Shown piece after piece: positions 8,001-16,372 of a stretch of 64,000 nucleotides of DNA. The DNA lies in the NCBI RefSeq assembly GCF_030145185.1, contig NZ_JAQYWB010000008.1, positions 1 to 64,000 of the forward strand. Reading direction: 5' to 3'. Numbering within the stretch: the stretch's first letter is position 1; each line of letters begins with the position of its first letter. This DNA is from Desulfoluna sp. (GTDB lineage: Bacteria; Desulfobacterota; Desulfobacteria; Desulfobacterales; Desulfolunaceae). The notes under the pieces are model-generated. The model was not told the origin of the DNA and did not search any database. It saw only the letters and a list, made by a program, of their open reading frames with translations. The position numbers and the translations under genes were made by a program.

Positions 8001-8261
8001 GCGGTCATGGAAGCCGGACAACGCCGGCTCCGGCCCATCCTGCTCACCTCCCTGACCACCTTTTTTGGTCTGGTCCCCATGATCCTGGAGACCAGCGTTC
8101 AGGCCCAATTTCTCATCCCCATGGCCATCAGCTTAGGGTTCGGCATCCTCTTTGCCACCCTCATCACCCTGATCCTTATCCCTTCCCTTTACATGATCCT
8201 TGAAGATGCAAAGGACACCGTGGGCGAGAGGGAAAAAAGCCTGCCTCCGGCGGCAAGGTGA
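5097..8261 (+). CDS. RND multidrug efflux inner-membrane transporter (AcrB/HAE1-like)
   Basis: A 1054-residue proton-driven exporter of the resistance-nodulation-division superfamily. It has TM1 at about residues 12-30, a large periplasmic loop, TM2-6, and a repeat of this arrangement in the second half. The intramembrane acidic pair is visible in GIVVDDAIVVGENI (TM4), matching the proton relay of AcrB. Family members pump amphiphilic drugs, bile-type detergents or lipids from the periplasm through the adaptor and outer-membrane channel encoded upstream. The last residues, PPAAR, and the TGA stop come from a copy of a palindromic repeat (8243-8280), so the native C terminus has probably been altered. 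Confidence 0.93.
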   Translation: MKKWIEWMAGNHVAANLLMLVFVVGGLVKGLGVKQEVFPEIALDKIQVAVAYPGAGPEEVEEGIILKVEEAISSIDGIDDLTSQAFEGRGNVIAELRSGVDANVVLQDIKSEVDRVTTFPEDAEEPVVSKILNLQETVSVVVYGDLPERTLRERAERVRNELLDRPEITQVELGGVRPYEVTIEVSEENLRRYGLTMERVAGAVRQASLDLPGGTIKTKSGEILLRTKEKRYKAAEYADIVIVRGENGAAVRLGDLAVLTDGFEDTGTYARFDGKPAAMVNVFRVGDEKPTEISDLVLAYVDEVNARWPESVRAAVWNDTSELLESRLNLLKKNAFLGLCLVIIVLGLFLELRLALWVMLGIPISFMGALMLMPVFDVSINMISLFAFILALGIVVDDAIVVGENIFDHREKGKPFLQAAIDGATEMSVPVTFSILTTVAAFVPISFVGGTMGKFMGAVPVVVISLLMISLVECLFVLPAHLSGGTSRPLSGFFLGRLDKTRILFGNQLDRFVSGPYRRTLTLALSFRYATFALSLAMLFLSVGIVRSGLIKFTFMPEVEGERITAALQMPVGTTLETTGAQADRLIAAAMESVAEVDADHPGEPSVFRHVYAIVGGVMAKMGPAHGGESAASATHLSEIALFLTKAEERDVPISAVKDAWRKKVGEIPGVDSLTFTTDLVRMGANIDVELRHVDYRVLEAAAEEVKNYVTGYPGVTDIEDNFSQGKGEIKFTLTDEAKTLGITEADFARQVRGAFFGSEALRLQIGRNEVKVKIRYPEEDRRLIETLISMRIRTPQGGELPIARAAFFDRGRGYSTITRANRKRVVNVTATVNAKEGNAGEINEDIREHLLPGLMAKYEGLSYGFAGEEKEKRESISSLREGYLLALFAIYALLAIPFKSYVQPLIIMFAIPFGMVGAILGHLLMGYDLSMLSLFGVIALSGVVVNDSLLMIDRINTNRSQGMATAEAVMEAGQRRLRPILLTSLTTFFGLVPMILETSVQAQFLIPMAISLGFGILFATLITLILIPSLYMILEDAKDTVGEREKSLPPAAR

Positions 8262-8280
8262 GCCACCTTGAAAGCAGGTT
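8243..8280 (+). repeat. GCCTCCGGCGGC palindromic repeat, copy A2 overlapping an RND stop codon
   Basis: The sequence GCCTCCGGCGGCAAGGTG, a short spacer, then CCACCTTGAAAGC. The first 19 bases are the last codons and stop of the RND gene. It matches 15699 and the complement of 1559-1627. Confidence 0.8.
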
Positions 8281-8351: not shown

Positions 8352-8879
8352 ATGATGCTATTCATCATTTTTTCCTTGTTTTTTTTGATTTTTTATAAAG
8401 AAAAAGAGTTTATTCTTGTGAGTGGAATGCTGTTCTTTGTTTCAGGTGTCATTTTTTATGGCATTATTCACTATGAAAAGTCATTTCGTCATATATCCGG
8501 GATCGTCACCCTTACCCAATATGACAACAGTGGCGACAGCAGGCGTCAAAATCCTTCCCTGATTATTTTTCTGGAATCTCATTTAGAACCGTTAAAATTC
8601 ACTGCAGAAAAAGAGAAGGTCCGTGAAATGAATCGACGGCTTAAAAAAGGTGACAAGGTTGACATCGTCGTAGAAAGTTTTTTTGACAATATTTGGGGGA
8701 TAACGGTGGGTAACGATGACATTCTTTCTTTCTCCCAAGAAAAAAAAGAAAAGAATGATTATGCATCTTTTCTGATTCTGTACGGGGCTTTTTTATACGT
8801 TGTCATAGTCTTTGGAAAGCATATCGTCGCTAAGATCAGATCGTTTAAAACAAGGCGTTATCATAAGAAATTAAATTGA
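8352..8879 (+). CDS. Hypothetical membrane protein (DUF3592-like topology)
   Basis: A 175-residue protein I do not firmly recognise. Two hydrophobic segments at about residues 3-15 and 20-40, an extracytoplasmic region of about 95 residues, a third membrane segment at about 137-157 and a basic tail (RSFKTRRYHKKLN) recall DUF3592 proteins. The gene is much AT-richer than its neighbours and uses different codons, which suggests recent acquisition. It stands alone and is followed by a hairpin at 8883-8902. Confidence 0.65.
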   Translation: MMLFIIFSLFFLIFYKEKEFILVSGMLFFVSGVIFYGIIHYEKSFRHISGIVTLTQYDNSGDSRRQNPSLIIFLESHLEPLKFTAEKEKVREMNRRLKKGDKVDIVVESFFDNIWGITVGNDDILSFSQEKKEKNDYASFLILYGAFLYVVIVFGKHIVAKIRSFKTRRYHKKLN

Positions 8880-9061: not shown

Positions 9062-9111
9062 AAAATGAATAGTAAAGAGCTTTTCAACAGCTCTTTTTTT
9101 GTATTCATTTT
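9062..9111 (+). terminator. Nested terminator-like hairpin directly upstream of the Lux-like operon
   Basis: The inner stem AAAGAGCT/AGCTCTTT (9074-9081 with 9089-9096) is followed by a T run. An outer stem AAAATGAATA/TATTCATTTT (9062-9071 with 9102-9111) encloses it. It ends 18 bp before the start codon at 9129, so it could act as an attenuator for the operon rather than as a simple terminator for the upstream gene. Confidence 0.6.
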
Positions 9112-9128: not shown

Positions 9129-10682
9129 ATGATGGACACTGAATCAGGCAAAACGTATGCCGACCTCCCGCACTTTCCTGCGTCATCAAGGGCAAAATCG
9201 TCACTCTCCCTGCCCGCACGCATCGATTATTTAGAGCCGATCCAGAACTATGTGGAAGGCCTTTGTCACGTTCATGGCTGTGAAACCCAAGAGAGTCTGA
9301 TGGTGGTTCTTGCCGTTGAAGAAGCGGTGAGCAATGTCATCCAGCATGGGTTTGCTTCTGAGAAGGGAGGCACCTTTGATATCTCCTTTGATGTGGGCGC
9401 AGCGGACCTGACCATCGAAATCCATGACAAGGGGCTCCCCTTTGACCCGCGCATGCTGAGTGCCTGCGGAGAAAGCGACGCCTCAGAAGTTTCAGATCCC
9501 CACGAGGGGCTGGGGGTCCGGCTCATGAAGGGCGCCATGGACAGGGTGGAGTTCATCAACCTCGGGAAGCAGGGTAAGCTGGTCCGAATGTTTAAATATT
9601 TCCGGCACGGCAAGGTGGCTCCTGATCTCTCCGGGGATCAACACCCAACAGAGGCAACGCCGAATGAGCCCCCCCTCGTGCCCCCTTTTTCCGTGCGCCC
9701 CCTCACGGAAGCCGAGGCCCTTGACGTCTCGCGTTGTGCCTATCGCGCCTATGGGTATACCTACCGGGATTTTATCTATTATCCCCAAAAAATATGGGAA
9801 TTGAACCAGGACGGGCAGTTGCATTCCTTTGTGCTGGTGGACGCTCAAAACAAATTGTTGGGCCACCTGGCCCTCTCCTTTAGCGCCCCCGAGGCCACCA
9901 TCGCAGAGCTGACCGCAGCCTTTGTCGATCCGGCCTGCAGAGGAAAGAGACTCCTTGGGCAATTGATGGTTGAGGTCATGTCCAAGGCTGAAATGATGGG
10001 CATCCGGAACCTTTTTGTCCATGCGGTTACGAGCCATCATGCCTCTCAAAAAAGCGCCACCCTGTTCGATTTTATCCCCACTGGGCTTCTTTTGGCGGCC
10101 CTTTTTCCCGACCTGGAGTTCAAGGCGCTCACCGGCAAGGTGAGCCAGAAGGAAAACGCCCTGCTCATGGTCAAACCGCTGAAAGCCAGGTCCCCTTACA
10201 CCTTATATGTTCCGAATCGTTACACAGAGATTATTCGTTCGCTCTCAACGAACGTCGGGCAAATGGTTTCTGTTGAAGACACCTCCCCCCCTTTACCCGA
10301 CCTTTCGGGAGGCGAGGGGAACCGGTATTACCAGGTGGAGGAGTTCAATTTTGCCGAAATAAGGATCCGCACCTTTGGTGAGGATGTTCTGGAGGAGCTT
10401 GGTCAGCGGGTCAAGGGCTATGTCCGAAATCGCATAGACGTCATCTACCTCTACCTGGATATCGAGTGCCCTGAAGCCGCTCCCTTTGCCGCACGTTGCC
10501 TGGAGCTGGGATTTTTCTTCTGTGGCTATATGCCGGGCGAGATGGCGGGGCGAGACGGCCTGATCCTGCAAAAACTCAACGACATCAGCATCGATTTTAC
10601 AGCCCTGGATCTGGACGGGGATCAGGCACGCGAGGTCATGGAATTCATACAGGGCGATATGGCTGCCCGTGAGGAGAAATAA
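9129..10682 (+). CDS. RsbW-type ATPase fused to GNAT acetyltransferase
   Basis: A 517-residue fusion. Residues about 20-150 form an anti-sigma-factor/SpoIIAB-type HATPase domain: the N box is EEAVSNVIQHGF, the G1 box is DKGLPFDP, and the ATP-lid segment is GLGVRLMKGAMDRVEF. Residues about 175-330 form a GNAT domain with the acetyl-CoA loop DPACRGKRLLGQL. Residues about 370-510 look like a second, degenerate GNAT fold. The first domain may regulate an anti-sigma/antagonist pathway or simply act as a sensor; the acetyltransferase substrate is unknown. It heads a tight operon, and the next gene starts 2 bp after its stop. The ribosome-binding site is weak (GGGAT) and a terminator-like hairpin lies just upstream. 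It is not a known part of bacterial lux operons. Confidence 0.8.
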   Translation: MMDTESGKTYADLPHFPASSRAKSSLSLPARIDYLEPIQNYVEGLCHVHGCETQESLMVVLAVEEAVSNVIQHGFASEKGGTFDISFDVGAADLTIEIHDKGLPFDPRMLSACGESDASEVSDPHEGLGVRLMKGAMDRVEFINLGKQGKLVRMFKYFRHGKVAPDLSGDQHPTEATPNEPPLVPPFSVRPLTEAEALDVSRCAYRAYGYTYRDFIYYPQKIWELNQDGQLHSFVLVDAQNKLLGHLALSFSAPEATIAELTAAFVDPACRGKRLLGQLMVEVMSKAEMMGIRNLFVHAVTSHHASQKSATLFDFIPTGLLLAALFPDLEFKALTGKVSQKENALLMVKPLKARSPYTLYVPNRYTEIIRSLSTNVGQMVSVEDTSPPLPDLSGGEGNRYYQVEEFNFAEIRIRTFGEDVLEELGQRVKGYVRNRIDVIYLYLDIECPEAAPFAARCLELGFFFCGYMPGEMAGRDGLILQKLNDISIDFTALDLDGDQAREVMEFIQGDMAAREEK

Positions 10683-10684
10683 AC

Positions 10685-11824
10685 ATGGGGTTTCACAGTA
10701 TCCAACGCTACGCCGACCTGGCGCCGGCTTTTTCAGACACATCGACGAGTGATCGGATTTTCCTTGAGGCCATGCAGGAAAACTATCGCTTTCAATACGA
10801 GAATCAACCCTATGTACGGGCCCTGGCCGAGCGGTATCATTTTTCGCCTTCGGATCTGAAGACACCGGACGATGTTTTTGATGTCCCCCCCATCTTTGTG
10901 GAGACCATGAAGTACCATCGTTTCCTGTCTATCCCAGAAGACCAGGTGGCCATGAGCCTGACCAGCTCCGGCACCGGCGGCCAAAAAACCCAGGCCCTTT
11001 TCGATGCGGACGGGCTGGAACGCATCCAGACCATTTCCGCCCGAATCTTCAAAGACGTCGGCTTTTGCTCTGATCGTCCGGCAGGCTACCTGATGTTCAG
11101 CTATGCCAGGGAAGACGCCCGGGAAATCGGTACCAGTTGGAGCGATGAGCAGGAGATGCGATGCGCGCCGGTCACTGATGCCCGCTGGCTGTTGCGAAAG
11201 GGTCCGGACGGGAATTTTGATTTTAATGTGGAAGAGGCGGCGCGTTCCCTTGCGGAGCTGGCGGAAAAAGGTCCCGTCCGCATGTTGGGTTTTCCGGCGT
11301 TTATTTTTCAGACCCTGGAAGAGATTGAGCGGCAAGGCCTGAAGGTTCGCGTGCATCCAGACAGCTTTGTCATCGCCGGAGGCGGCTGGAAAAATCACGC
11401 AGGCACCCCCATGACCCAAAGCGAGTTCGCAGGCGAGTTGGAAGAGCGCCTGGGCCTTCCCCGGAGCAACGTCCGGGACCTGTACGGCATGGTCGAGCAC
11501 GGGATTCCCTATTGCTCCTGTCCGGAAGGACATCACCATGTGCCGGTCTTTGCCCGGGTGGCGGTGAGGCACCCGGTCACCTTGGAGCGGCTTCCCATAG
11601 GCGAAGAGGGGCTGCTTCAGCTCATCTCACCCTGGAATGTGGCCCAACCCAATTGCTCCGTCCTCTCCACCGATCTGGTCCGAATAGAGACCGGATGCCC
11701 CTGCGGTATTCCCGGGGAGTACATCGCCTCCATCCGGCGCGGCGGGAACCAAAAGCATAAAGGGTGCGCCCTGTCGGCCCAGGAGATCCTCGACAGAATC
11801 CGTTCAGCAAGGAAGGAAAAATAA
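10685..11824 (+). CDS. LuxE-like acyl-protein synthetase
   Basis: A 379-residue member of the acyl-protein synthetase/LuxE family, close to the length of Vibrio LuxE. In bioluminescent bacteria LuxE activates a fatty acid with ATP and holds it as a thioester on a cysteine near its C terminus before passing it to LuxC. Here the adenylating loop SLTSSGTGGQKTQ lies at about residues 94-106, and a cysteine at 361 (KGCALSAQEIL) sits where the LuxE acceptor cysteine is expected. A CPCG motif (about 338-341) is additional. GAGGAG precedes the start. The following gene starts 4 bp after the stop and encodes the LuxC partner. The substrate need not be a C14 fatty acid. Confidence 0.85.
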   Translation: MGFHSIQRYADLAPAFSDTSTSDRIFLEAMQENYRFQYENQPYVRALAERYHFSPSDLKTPDDVFDVPPIFVETMKYHRFLSIPEDQVAMSLTSSGTGGQKTQALFDADGLERIQTISARIFKDVGFCSDRPAGYLMFSYAREDAREIGTSWSDEQEMRCAPVTDARWLLRKGPDGNFDFNVEEAARSLAELAEKGPVRMLGFPAFIFQTLEEIERQGLKVRVHPDSFVIAGGGWKNHAGTPMTQSEFAGELEERLGLPRSNVRDLYGMVEHGIPYCSCPEGHHHVPVFARVAVRHPVTLERLPIGEEGLLQLISPWNVAQPNCSVLSTDLVRIETGCPCGIPGEYIASIRRGGNQKHKGCALSAQEILDRIRSARKEK

Positions 11825-11828
11825 AGAG

Positions 11829-14438
11829 ATGGCACCCATGAAACATTTTATATTTGGCGACTTTAAAGAGAGTTCACAGGACCTGCCCCTCGAAGAGGGC
11901 AGGAGCTTTTTTAACCGCGACAGCATGCGTACCCGTGTGGACGCCTTTGCCCAGGTCCCCTTGGATGACGTCATCTCACTGCTGGACCGGGTCGGACGCA
12001 GGCTCACGGAGCCGGGCCGGTACCGGGATCATATTTTGGAGATCATGCCGCGCATCACGGGCTATTCCCTGCCCATGCTGGACAAAGCCCTGGAGGCCCT
12101 TAAGGGGATGCTCTCCCGTGAGGCCCTGGAAGAACGCCTCTTTTGCCTCGGCGATCGGCGTGTCCTGGACGGCTGGACCCTCTCCCATGGAAAGCCCTCC
12201 CGCGCCTTGCCCCTGGGCGCCATCTGCCACGTGGCCCCCGGCAATATCTTTCTGGGGTCCATCGATTCCATGATCACGGGGATGATCACCAAGAACATCA
12301 ACGTATTGAAGCTCTCCAGTCAGGACCCGATCTTTCCCTTTATCTTCCTTGAGGCCCTTCTGGAAGAGGATCCCACGAGAAAAATCGCATCGACCCTGGC
12401 CATCACCTCCTGGAGTCATACCAATACGGGCATGATGGAGCTGGTAGGCAATGCGTTTGACGGCATCCTCCTGTTTGGGGGGGAAGACGCCGTTCGGGAG
12501 TACGCCAAGATCACGGCCATGGGCACCCGCCTGATGGCTTATGGGCCCAAGTTAAGTTGGGGGCTGATCCGCAGCGGCCTGGAACCCGAGGCCCTTGAAG
12601 ACGCCGTGCAAGGATTTGCCCTGGACATCGCCCTCTGGGAACAGAAGGCCTGTACCAGCTGCCAGAACCTCTTTGTGGAGGGAAAAGAGCTGGCCCGGGA
12701 AGTGGCGCACAGGCTTCACCGGAATCTGGAGGCACTCAGCCAGACCCTGCCCCAGGAGACCCTTTCGCTCGATGAAGGCGTGGACATCCGCAAGGTAAGA
12801 GAAAAAGCCTTCAGGGCCTCCTTTGACGGCCAGGGAGAACTCCTGGAAGGCAAGACCCATTCGGTCATCTTAGGCGAGGGCGCCGATATCATCCCCTCTC
12901 CCCTGAACCGCACCATTTATGTGAACGCCCTTGAAGACTGGCGGGATCTTCTCCAGGGAAACATGCGCTGCATGGCCGACCACATGTCCACCGCAGGCGT
13001 GGCCGTGCCCGGGCCACTCTTCAACGAAACCCTGCAGGGCCTCGAACCTCTGGGGATCCCGCGCTTTTGCCGTCCCGGCACCATGGGGACAGGGACCGAC
13101 GGGGGGGCGCCCCACGATGGGTCCTATATCATTTTGGGCCTGGTGCGCCTCGTCAGCAGAGAAGACGTGCCTTTAGAACGGCTGGGGCGTTATTACGACA
13201 GCCCGGAGCGGCGTGAAGACCGCCTCTTGGCCGAATTGAACCGGCTGGTGGAGCAGGCCATGAAGAGTCCTTTTTACCAACAGCTGTACGCCGATGTGAA
13301 GCGGCCCCTCACCAGCTTGAAAGAGTTTGAACAGCTTCCCGTCCTGGAAAAAGAGGCCTTGGAAGAGCACTGCCCTCCCATGGATACGGCGATGCTCACC
13401 GCTTCGTCTGAAGCCAGTTATATTTTCAGTTCGGGAGGCACCTCCGGTGTTCCCCGGAACATCTGCTGGACCACCGAAGAATTTAAACAAGCGGGTCGGG
13501 TTCTGGGCCAGGGCTTCCGGGCTCTGGGGCTCTCGTCGACGGACAGGGTGGCCAACCTGATGCGGGCAGGCTCCCTGTACACCGGCTTTCTGGCCATGAA
13601 CGGGGGGTTGGAGCAGACGGGCTGTCAGATCCTTTCCATCACCGCCAACCAGAGCATCGACGAGACCCTGGAGCTTCTGGAAAACCTCAAACCCAACGTG
13701 GCCATGGGCATGACCAGTACCCTGGTGGAGCTGGCTGAAAAAACCAGAAAAGAGGGGCGAGAGATCCGTTTTGACCGTATTTTTTATACGGGAGAGGCCA
13801 TGTCCGATTCGTCACGCGAGTTGCTGCGTAGCGTCTTCAAAGCTTCTAAGGTCGGGTCCCTCGCTTACGGCGCCGTGGAAATCGGCACTCTGGGGTTCCA
13901 GTGTGACCACTGCCGGCATGATGAATTCCACGTGTCCGAGGACTGGGCCTACCTGGAATTCGGCGATGAGGGAGAGGTCTTTGCCACGGGAACGGCACGG
14001 ATGCTACACCCCATCATCCGTTACCGCATTGGCGATCGGGCCGCCTGGGTCGACACCCCATGCACCTGCGGAAGAACAGCACGGAAATTCCGGCTCCTGG
14101 GGCGCACCGACTATTACGTTCGCCTTCTCTACAACGACCTTTATACGGTGGAGATAGACAGGGCGCTGGCCCCTTTCCCCGAACTGACCCCGGTGTATCA
14201 AATCACCGTGCAGGGCGGCGAAAAGGGCCTTGAGGTCTTTCTTGTCATCGAAGGAGACGAGGTGCCGGGGCTCACGACAAAGGTATGGGAGAGGCTGAAA
14301 CAAGAAGCCTCCGAATTTACAGACCTGCCGGATTTTGGATGTCCCTTTGCCATCGATATTGTGCCCTCGGGAAGCATCCCGCGGGTCGGGCGCACCGGAA
14401 AAATTAGAAAAATTGTCGATCTCAGGGTGGCGAAATGA
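11829..14438 (+). CDS. LuxC-like acyl reductase fused to PaaK-type adenylating domain
   Basis: An 869-residue two-domain enzyme. Residues about 1-445 match LuxC, the NADPH-dependent acyl-CoA/acyl-enzyme reductase of the aldehyde-dehydrogenase superfamily. HVAPGNIFLGSIDSM is the cofactor-binding region, and Cys275 in WEQKACTSCQN sits where the catalytic cysteine is expected. Residues about 450-869 resemble phenylacetate-CoA ligase/coenzyme F390 synthetase enzymes, with the ATP loop FSSGGTSGVPRN, YGAVEIGTLGF and a Cys/His cluster (CDHCRHDEFH, CTCG). The architecture suggests one chain that activates a carboxylate and reduces an acyl thioester to an aldehyde. Known LuxC is about 480 residues and not fused, so this is unusual. 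It overlaps the MFS gene by ATGA. Confidence 0.85.
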   Translation: MAPMKHFIFGDFKESSQDLPLEEGRSFFNRDSMRTRVDAFAQVPLDDVISLLDRVGRRLTEPGRYRDHILEIMPRITGYSLPMLDKALEALKGMLSREALEERLFCLGDRRVLDGWTLSHGKPSRALPLGAICHVAPGNIFLGSIDSMITGMITKNINVLKLSSQDPIFPFIFLEALLEEDPTRKIASTLAITSWSHTNTGMMELVGNAFDGILLFGGEDAVREYAKITAMGTRLMAYGPKLSWGLIRSGLEPEALEDAVQGFALDIALWEQKACTSCQNLFVEGKELAREVAHRLHRNLEALSQTLPQETLSLDEGVDIRKVREKAFRASFDGQGELLEGKTHSVILGEGADIIPSPLNRTIYVNALEDWRDLLQGNMRCMADHMSTAGVAVPGPLFNETLQGLEPLGIPRFCRPGTMGTGTDGGAPHDGSYIILGLVRLVSREDVPLERLGRYYDSPERREDRLLAELNRLVEQAMKSPFYQQLYADVKRPLTSLKEFEQLPVLEKEALEEHCPPMDTAMLTASSEASYIFSSGGTSGVPRNICWTTEEFKQAGRVLGQGFRALGLSSTDRVANLMRAGSLYTGFLAMNGGLEQTGCQILSITANQSIDETLELLENLKPNVAMGMTSTLVELAEKTRKEGREIRFDRIFYTGEAMSDSSRELLRSVFKASKVGSLAYGAVEIGTLGFQCDHCRHDEFHVSEDWAYLEFGDEGEVFATGTARMLHPIIRYRIGDRAAWVDTPCTCGRTARKFRLLGRTDYYVRLLYNDLYTVEIDRALAPFPELTPVYQITVQGGEKGLEVFLVIEGDEVPGLTTKVWERLKQEASEFTDLPDFGCPFAIDIVPSGSIPRVGRTGKIRKIVDLRVAK

Positions 14439-15676
14439 TTATGGACGGATTCGCTGCACACCCCCTGGTTCGTTTTCCCGACTTCAGGCGTTTCTTCAGC
14501 TCCCGGTTTGTCTCGGCCATGGGCGATAAATTTTTCACCATTGCCCTGGCCTGGTGGGCCGTTAACGAAACAGGGCCTCAAGGCGCCCTCAACCTGGGTT
14601 TTCTCATGGCCCTGACCCTGGTGCCCTCGGTGATCTTCGGCCCCCTGGTCGGGACCCTGGTCGACCGATTCGACCGGAAACGCTGCATGATCATAGCCGA
14701 TGCCTGCCGGCTTCTGCTGGCCTCCCTGATGGCCGTGCTGCTGGTGCAGGGGGCCATGACCCTTCCGCGTATGTACGTCCTGGTCTTTCTGCTGGCCTGC
14801 TTTATGCCGCTGTTCGAATCATCGGCTGAAGGCTCCCTGGCCTCGCTCACAGACGAAGAGGGGCTCTTTGCAGCGGTTGCCGTGGATTCTTCCGTGGTGG
14901 CCATGTCCAATGTTCTGGGTGCTGCACTGGGAGGCATGGCCCTGGCCGCCTTGGGCACGGCCGGGGCCTTTGGTTTTAACGGGGCCACCTTTGCCGTGTC
15001 CCTTTTGTTTATTGCCTCGGTGAAAACATCCCTGGTCCCCGAAGCGAGAACAGAGGACGGGAGCGGACCGGCCAGTACCCGGCAGTCTCTGGGGGAAATC
15101 GTGTCATGGCTTGGGCAACACCGCGACGTGCTGGGGATGTTGATCATCTTTGGCGTCCTCAATTTCTTTGCCGCCCCCTTGATGATCTCCATTCCCATGA
15201 TGGTTCGCTATGCCTTTGACGGAAGCGTCTCCTGGGTGGCTATCCTCGAAGCGAGCCTCGCCCTTGGAACCGTCACCATGGCCATCGTCATGAGCTTTGC
15301 CTCGGGAGGCAAAACGTTGTCCAGGATCTTTACGGGGGTGATCGTCATGGGTGTCTCCATTGTCCTTTTTGCCCGTTGTCCCCAACTGTGGATGGCTCTT
15401 CCCCTCGTCTTCTTCGCAGGATGCAGCCTTGCCCTGGTCAACGCAGCGGCCATGGGCTTTTTCCAACGCACCGTTCCCGACGCGCTGAAGGGACGATTCT
15501 TCGCCATTCTGACCGCCGTGGCCTATTCCGTCATGCCCCTGGCTCTGGCCCTGAACGGGGCGTTGTCCCAGTTCTACTCCGTACGAAAGGTCTTGGCAGC
15601 AGACGGCGTCATGCTCTGTCTGCTCTCGGGCTTCTTTTTTCTGGGGGTCTTTCGAAAATCTCAGGCCTTGCGTTAA
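14435..15676 (+). CDS. MFS transporter
   Basis: A 413-residue protein with about 12 hydrophobic segments and the MFS loop 2-3 motif GPLVGTLVDRFDRKR (about residues 68-82), the usual G-x3-D-R-x-G/D-R-R type. The sequence resembles enterobactin-exporter-like (EntS/MFS_3) drug/H+ antiporters. Translational coupling to the LuxC-PaaK gene makes export of the product of that pathway the simplest hypothesis. The cargo is unknown. Confidence 0.85.
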   Translation: MIMDGFAAHPLVRFPDFRRFFSSRFVSAMGDKFFTIALAWWAVNETGPQGALNLGFLMALTLVPSVIFGPLVGTLVDRFDRKRCMIIADACRLLLASLMAVLLVQGAMTLPRMYVLVFLLACFMPLFESSAEGSLASLTDEEGLFAAVAVDSSVVAMSNVLGAALGGMALAALGTAGAFGFNGATFAVSLLFIASVKTSLVPEARTEDGSGPASTRQSLGEIVSWLGQHRDVLGMLIIFGVLNFFAAPLMISIPMMVRYAFDGSVSWVAILEASLALGTVTMAIVMSFASGGKTLSRIFTGVIVMGVSIVLFARCPQLWMALPLVFFAGCSLALVNAAAMGFFQRTVPDALKGRFFAILTAVAYSVMPLALALNGALSQFYSVRKVLAADGVMLCLLSGFFFLGVFRKSQALR

Positions 15677-16372
15677 GGATGGCCGAAAAATAAGCTTGCC
15701 GGCGGCAAGGTGAGCCACCTTGAAAGGGGGTTTGCTAATGCATTCGCGTGAAGGGTGAGGGGATGCCTCGTACGTCGTAAGGGCATGCGCGACCGGTGCT
15801 TACGGTTTTTTGTCATTTTCATCGTTGTGGGTTCTGCCAATGCAAGATGGGCACGCTTCGCCCTTTGATATTAAATGGGTGCCCATCCTACGGGCCGTCG
15901 TTGTTCCAATGAGGGGGGGGGATGAGAACGAATGATAATCATATTCATGTGTGACAGCAGATGTGATTGGCCACGAGGAATCCGCCTACGCAAAAGCCTC
16001 CGGCGTGACAAGTCCGCCTACGTAAAAGCCTCCGGTGTGACAAGTCCGCCTACGCCTACGCCTATGCCCATGTCTATGCATTACCATTCGACGAACGTCA
16101 ATGAGCTACGACGCGACAAGTGATCCGTCTTCGTCAGCTACGCCTGAAAAAAGGCTGCTACGCCGTGACAAGGGGATAAAGCGCATCCGTAACCTGCTTT
16201 TGTGATGTGACGGAAGCGATGACTCAGGTAAAAAACGCGCCGAGGTGCTGGATTCTATGGCGACGGAGTCGCCACGCCCCTGCTTTTATAAAAGGCATGA
16301 GCGTAGCGAATCCATTGAACGAAGAACAAGGAACCAAGCACCCAGAACGTTTTCATGTTTGGTCTTTCCCCA
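15677..16372. repeat. Repeat-rich gene-free region
   Basis: About 700 bp with no credible gene. It contains a copy of the GCCTCCGGCGGC family (15699-15765, AAGGTGAGCCACCTTGAAAG and onward, copy A3). It also has a 32-bp tandem repeat at 15981-16012 and 16013-16044 with a partial third unit from 16045 (TCCGCCTACG, AAAAGCCTCCGG, GTGACAAG). The adjacent stretches rich in CTACGCC and CGACAAG look like decayed copies. Confidence 0.7.

Follow-up and report, generated by a model that had tools for sequence, protein, structure and literature searches.

The four genes at 9129-15676 of the window (the whole 64,000-nucleotide stretch of Desulfoluna sp. DNA analysed here) raise the question of what proteins of the LuxC and LuxE families do in an operon that holds no luciferase gene. 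All four lie on the + strand and follow one another with a 2-bp gap, a 4-bp gap and a 4-bp ATGA overlap by ORF coordinates, as a preliminary description of this DNA had stated. The first (9129..10682, +; 517 aa) encodes an RsbW-like HATPase_c_2 domain at residues ~25-165 and a GNAT acyltransferase region, LeupD-like, at ~190-517 (Pfam HATPase_c_2 E 1.9e-21 and Acetyltransf_1 E 3.3e-6). The second (10685..11824, +; 379 aa; Pfam LuxE E 4.4e-37) encodes a LuxE-family acyl-AMP ligase and acyl carrier of the LeupA clade, with Cys361 acyl-accepting by homology. The third (11829..14438, +; 869 aa) is a LeupB-type fusion of a LuxC acyl reductase at residues 41-440, containing Cys275 (Pfam LuxC E 3e-68), to a PaaK-like AMP ligase at ~460-866; Pfam matched AMP-binding_C_2 at E 4.9e-4, under its cut-off, and the PaaK-like assignment was based on the NCBIfam PaaK models (best 1e-33, all under curated cut-offs) and on PDB PaaK chains. 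The fourth (14435..15676, +; 413 aa; Pfam MFS_1 E 2.5e-20) encodes an MFS transporter that probably works as an exporter (TIGR00900 E 6.9e-48, under its cut-off). The domains described previously (RsbW-like ATPase, LuxE, LuxC-PaaK and MFS) were thus recovered, except that Pfam gave one GNAT region, at residues 215-308, where acetyltransferase domains in the plural had been proposed.

The view that LuxC and LuxE are known only from lux, also taken from the preliminary description, proved false. Both are reported in flagellin-glycosylation islands (PMC7874193 and PMC4875605), and the leup genes likewise comprise LuxE, LuxC-PaaK, PaaK and GNAT members. The islands raise the reading that the operon encodes a surface or flagellin modification pathway, and non-fused LuxC/LuxE loci do occur in the window's phylum. 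We nevertheless regard this as highly improbable: the window LuxE does not fall among the non-fused LuxE proteins, neither glycosyltransferase nor flagellar genes occur among the four, and the last gene of the operon encodes a transporter. A tropolone paper in mBio was set aside as not relevant, luxC being a reporter cassette there. The luciferase profile PF00296 (luxAB) gave 0 matches in the window's own genome (96.9% complete; the control was detected in 10 of 14 genomes), which extends the absence of luciferase noted earlier for the window to the genome. The operon has the LuxC and LuxE protein families in common with the luxCDABE fatty-acid reductase and, judged by homology, the chemistry of acyl transfer as well, but it has no luciferase gene, a LuxE of another clade and a LuxC fused to a ligase. 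An orphan lux operon was ruled out by the lack of a luciferase match and by a LuxE that stands apart from true luxE.

Genes for LuxE, LuxC-AMP ligase, PaaK and GNAT were first seen together in Streptomyces and Salmonella records (plasmid matches), and this set suggested the biosynthesis of leupeptin, a protease inhibitor that is a small peptide aldehyde. A leupABCD leupeptin cluster was reportedly described by Li et al. in 2020 for Klebsiella, Photorhabdus and Xenorhabdus. The names leupA-D and the primers leupA_f and leupB_r appear in PMC8283571, and the leup operon is named in PMC11480411. Both primers annealed in silico with zero mismatches to the Klebsiella michiganensis locus L074 at 10053-11287, spanning 1,235 bp, the published amplicon length. 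Since they match without mismatch at the published spacing, leupA is the LuxE gene and leupB the 802-aa LuxC-PaaK fusion of this locus. The published leupA-D span (5,831 nt), counted arithmetically from the same primer, reaches the GNAT gene's end to within ~5 nt; therefore, the separate PaaK gene is leupC and the GNAT gene is leupD. Leupeptin of Xenorhabdus is ascribed to separate AMP-dependent ligases and a reductase (PMC11212599), and leupeptin is described as made in the acid form, which a leupeptin acid reductase then reduces at the expense of ATP (PMC7714073). The LuxE-LuxC pair fits such an enzyme. Because PMC10548850 attributes the leupeptin of Streptomyces to NRPSs, the Streptomyces loci are considered leup-like by gene content only.

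The window shares with the leupABCD cluster homologues of LuxE and GNAT, the LeupB architecture of LuxC fused to a PaaK-like ligase, an MFS gene, the conserved catalytic Cys residues and a LuxE of the same clade. Identities to the K. michiganensis leup proteins were 27-37% (LuxE 37%, LuxC part 27%, PaaK part 30%, and GNAT 28% with E 4e-10). In the LuxE tree, the window and 22 other rows of the leup set were separated by a branch with support of 100/99 from 14 others, which included luxE from a lux operon of Photorhabdus, identified through the sizes and order of its genes. Placement of the window with the leup set was weak in a 38-row LuxC tree (59/66, LG+G4) and had support of 95/88 under a mixture model with 26 of the 38 rows; the 12 rows dropped were 7 of the leup set and 5 others, the long-branched L051, L055, L056 and L060 among the latter. 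The fused PaaK domains were not one clade in the best tree, and a single clade was not rejected (p-AU 0.098). Apart from the canonical leup group, the window formed a sub-clade with loci L180, L181, L046 and L047 in the trees of LuxE (97/89) and of LuxC with 38 rows (98/93) or 26 rows (91/85, unstarred).

These trees bear on a rival pathway in which the acid reduced by LuxE and LuxC-PaaK would be fatty or aromatic, with the GNAT acting on an amine derived from the product. The LuxC and LuxE families do act on fatty acids in lux, and PaaK activates phenylacetate. The window LuxE, however, belongs with LeupA (100/99) and apart from true LuxE, the combination of LuxC-PaaK fusion, GNAT and MFS closely resembles the set of leup genes, and the genome has no luciferase match, all of which make a fatty or aryl aldehyde improbable. 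Since leup genes are the nearest relatives found, the aldehyde is more likely to be of the peptide type than a lipid. The earlier proposal of a gene set for acid activation, aldehyde formation, acylation and export thus stands as a prediction from sequence, with the lipid aldehyde giving way to a peptide-type one. Overall, the operon probably serves the biosynthesis and export of a short N-acylated amino-acid or peptide aldehyde, as a divergent form of the leupeptin (leup) type.

Cys361 of LuxE was conserved in all 89 alignment rows and in true LuxE. Cys275 of LuxC, whose possible loss of function had been named earlier as an objection, was present in the window, in true LuxC and in 87 of 88 rows (the remaining row is a gap). 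In the adenylation domain, S535, Y680, D736, R759, K858 and Cys 692, 745 and 747 were conserved in 84-85 of 88 rows, the exceptions being gaps other than at S535 (two T) and R759 (one T).

The operon departs from leupABCD in several respects. Its GNAT carries an RsbW-like ATPase domain and stands first, the fused ligase keeps a longer N-terminal part, the MFS protein belongs to another subfamily than that of Klebsiella, and leupC is absent. No second ligase was found in the operon here or in L180 and L181. Elsewhere in the window's genome, the sole other PaaK-type match was a generic gene of the genus (96%), which speaks against a leupC located outside the operon. We regard the operon as leup-like in its probable function, with two departures, the absence of leupC and the RsbW-like ATPase fused to the acetyltransferase; since leupC is absent and the product is one that we infer, it was not filed as a strict leup member.

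The distribution of these features was followed at three levels. A scan with the LuxE alignment gave 588 stretches, of which 574 were confirmed; the counts that follow cover the 80 named loci listed among these matches, all nearest to the Salmonella LuxE (the first query). LuxE, the LuxC-PaaK fusion, a separate PaaK and GNAT were present in 76 of these 80; L072 has the genes without a single fused frame, and L090, L092 and L101 run into a sequence end. Profiles for HATPase and SpoIIE built from the loci of this analysis matched in 0 of the 80. Two loci, L042 and L068, lie on Salmonella enterica plasmids typed as conjugative by PLSDB and carry a leup-like LuxE / LuxC-AMP ligase / PaaK / GNAT cluster. 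In the phylum sample (297 genomes), LuxC was matched in 20 genomes (E 1e-15 or lower); of the 19 other than the window's, 13 loci were inspected, and three (L046, L047 and L048) had a LuxC-PaaK fusion with LuxE and an ATPase-GNAT gene, a set not seen in the other ten. In the class sample (389 genomes), 16 genomes matched the window LuxE at 1e-10, three strongly (G000, G472 and G620; E 1e-216 or better) and 13 weakly (1e-24 or worse; the locus was inspected for G006). A first search of genome contigs with the whole LuxC-PaaK protein as query gave no matches.

The window's four-gene order was found in three of the 389 class genomes, the window's included; the two others, which belong to the same order, are those of L180 and L181. 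The order proposed earlier as worth seeking elsewhere thus recurs in two other genomes at 69-86% protein identity, and because it does so it is more than chance. Among the inspected loci not cut by a sequence end, leupC was missing only in these three. All six fusion loci found in the phylum (window, L180, L181, L046, L047 and L048) carry the ATPase on the GNAT. In the pairwise comparison of the window, L180 and L181, identities were 69-85% and pN/pS was 0.15-0.31 (0.23-0.29 for the ATPase domain), at a pS of 0.47-0.70, which is near saturation. The operon, including its ATPase domain, is under purifying selection in these three genomes.

RsbW was the best NCBIfam match of the ATPase domain (below cut-off) and its only PDB match. 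With the anti-sigma kinases RsbW and SpoIIAB, the domain shares the HATPase_c_2 family and the N, G1 and G2 motifs; in the window, however, it is fused to an acyltransferase and has no STAS, sigma or PP2C gene adjoining. The scan covered the operon and 14 other window proteins and found no STAS, sigma-factor or PP2C gene. On other contigs of the same genome there were 4 SpoIIE and 11 STAS matches, and one contig (C63) carries STAS, HATPase and SpoIIE genes together. Of the 29 other HATPase-GNAT loci, four include a SpoIIE phosphatase: Pfam identified Cache-HAMP-SpoIIE in L047 and L048, and similarity pointed to SpoIIE in L182 and L196. No such gene was seen next to the window operon. Pat-type acetyltransferases, which have a fused regulatory nucleotide-binding domain and a protein as substrate, share the fusion of a nucleotide-binding domain to a GNAT, but their sensor domain differs from that of the window. 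The acetyl-CoA loop of the window GNAT deviates from the usual GNAT motif RxxGxG. The structure predicted for the ATPase-GNAT protein from its single sequence reached a mean pLDDT of 37.7 and was left out of the reading.

The three nucleotide motifs were intact in the window and in L181, and L180 has Glu in place of the G1 Asp. Among 30 aligned HATPase-GNAT proteins, seven keep all three motifs, or four if the G1 Asp is required (scored by eye), and those of L046-L048 do not keep all three. Such losses, with the substitution in L180, speak for a vestigial or structural N-terminal domain without a regulatory role, whereas the intact motifs of the window and L181, the retention of all but that Asp in L180, and the purifying selection on the domain in all three speak for function; a vestigial domain is accordingly quite conceivable, though it falls short of likely. 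As a regulatory domain, the RsbW-like ATPase would probably tune the acyltransferase, either through ATP binding or through partner switching with STAS and PP2C proteins.

Full-length HATPase-GNAT proteins, counted as rows spanning both domains, were present in 27 of the 389 class genomes. For 24 of the 27, LuxE, LuxC and PaaK matches were lacking in the vicinity, several of the stretches being only 5-7 kb long. Neighbouring genes encode a GH3 enzyme, an aminotransferase with an MFS protein, ThiF with a carboxyltransferase, and further MFS proteins, as well as DNA repair and nucleoside transport functions. Where the HATPase-GNAT gene lies near ThiF/carboxyltransferase, aminotransferase, GH3 or MFS genes (L182, L183, L197, L201, L204 and L205), the loci may represent further small-molecule operons that use this type of acyltransferase. 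A family of 454-458-aa proteins (L046:11452-12816 and L047:4850-6226, with relatives in L183 and L196) was also observed beside leup-like operons or HATPase-GNAT genes; the two members tested, those of L046 and L047, had no Pfam or NCBIfam match.

A terminator-like hairpin with a T tail, recognised by consensus match, lies at 9074..9096 (+), 32 bases before the first start codon, and may be an upstream transcript end or an attenuator; such sites numbered 18 in the region against a mean of 10.4 in shuffles. Two 34-nt direct copies of a palindromic REP-like repeat bracket the operon, at 8247..8280 (+) and 15699..15732 (+; 94% to the left copy), and another lies at ~1589-1635; the repeat is dispersed in the genus. 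Between the operon and a chemoreceptor gene, a dispersed repeat of ~260 bp with 32-nt tandem units occupies 15937-16200, with more copies on several contigs of the genome. Between an RND gene and the operon lies an AT-rich ORF of 175 aa (8352-8879; GC 0.35 against 0.54-0.64 in four other window genes) that had no Pfam match.

Five congeners, including two whose genomes are 87-93% complete, gave no match to the LuxC part. In the window, 8.1 kb separate the flanking RND and chemoreceptor genes, whereas the spacing between their matches is 573 bp in G001 and 177 bp in G004; other ORFs come after the RND gene in G002, G003 and G005. The operon has a GC3 of 0.65-0.72, near the 0.68-0.77 of four other window genes, and since the values are alike there is no sign of recent arrival. 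Loss in the congeners is also possible.

In the proposed pathway, the GNAT part would N-acylate an amino acid, and the PaaK-like domain of LuxC-PaaK would adenylate the acyl-amino acid and couple it to a second amino acid. LuxE would then adenylate the terminal carboxylate and hold it as a thioester on Cys361, from which the acyl group would pass to Cys275 of LuxC for reduction to the aldehyde with NAD(P)H, and the MFS protein would export the aldehyde. Since the operon has a single ligase domain against two in leup, its simplest product would be an N-acyl dipeptide (or aminoacyl) aldehyde. The gene content thus suggests one peptide bond fewer than in leup, with iterative use of the ligase or a ligase acting in trans also possible. 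Such a product would likely be a serine or cysteine protease inhibitor or a signal precursor. A more specific version, offered tentatively and rather unlikely as a whole, is that the ATPase is a working partner-switch or ATP-sensing gate on the first, committing acylation of a one-ligase leup pathway making an N-acyl dipeptide aldehyde. If this were true, a general stress or nutrient switch would control a natural product at the enzyme and not at transcription.

The leup-type kind of operon is already known; the ATPase-acetyltransferase fusion and the one-ligase layout are new here. In the literature set searched, nothing was found on partner switching of an RsbW-GNAT acetyltransferase, and no title or opening of an abstract on leupeptin or Desulfo aldehydes named such an operon. 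These data extend the genes for NRPS-free peptide aldehydes of the leup type to an operon with fewer genes, in which the assignment of individual ligases to individual bonds could be tested. If the host is a sulfate reducer, the operon lies far from the reported gammaproteobacterial producers. The occurrence of the ATPase-GNAT protein in 24 further loci of the class, away from LuxE, LuxC and PaaK matches, suggests a reusable acyltransferase module of small-molecule operons, perhaps one that is controlled on the enzyme itself.
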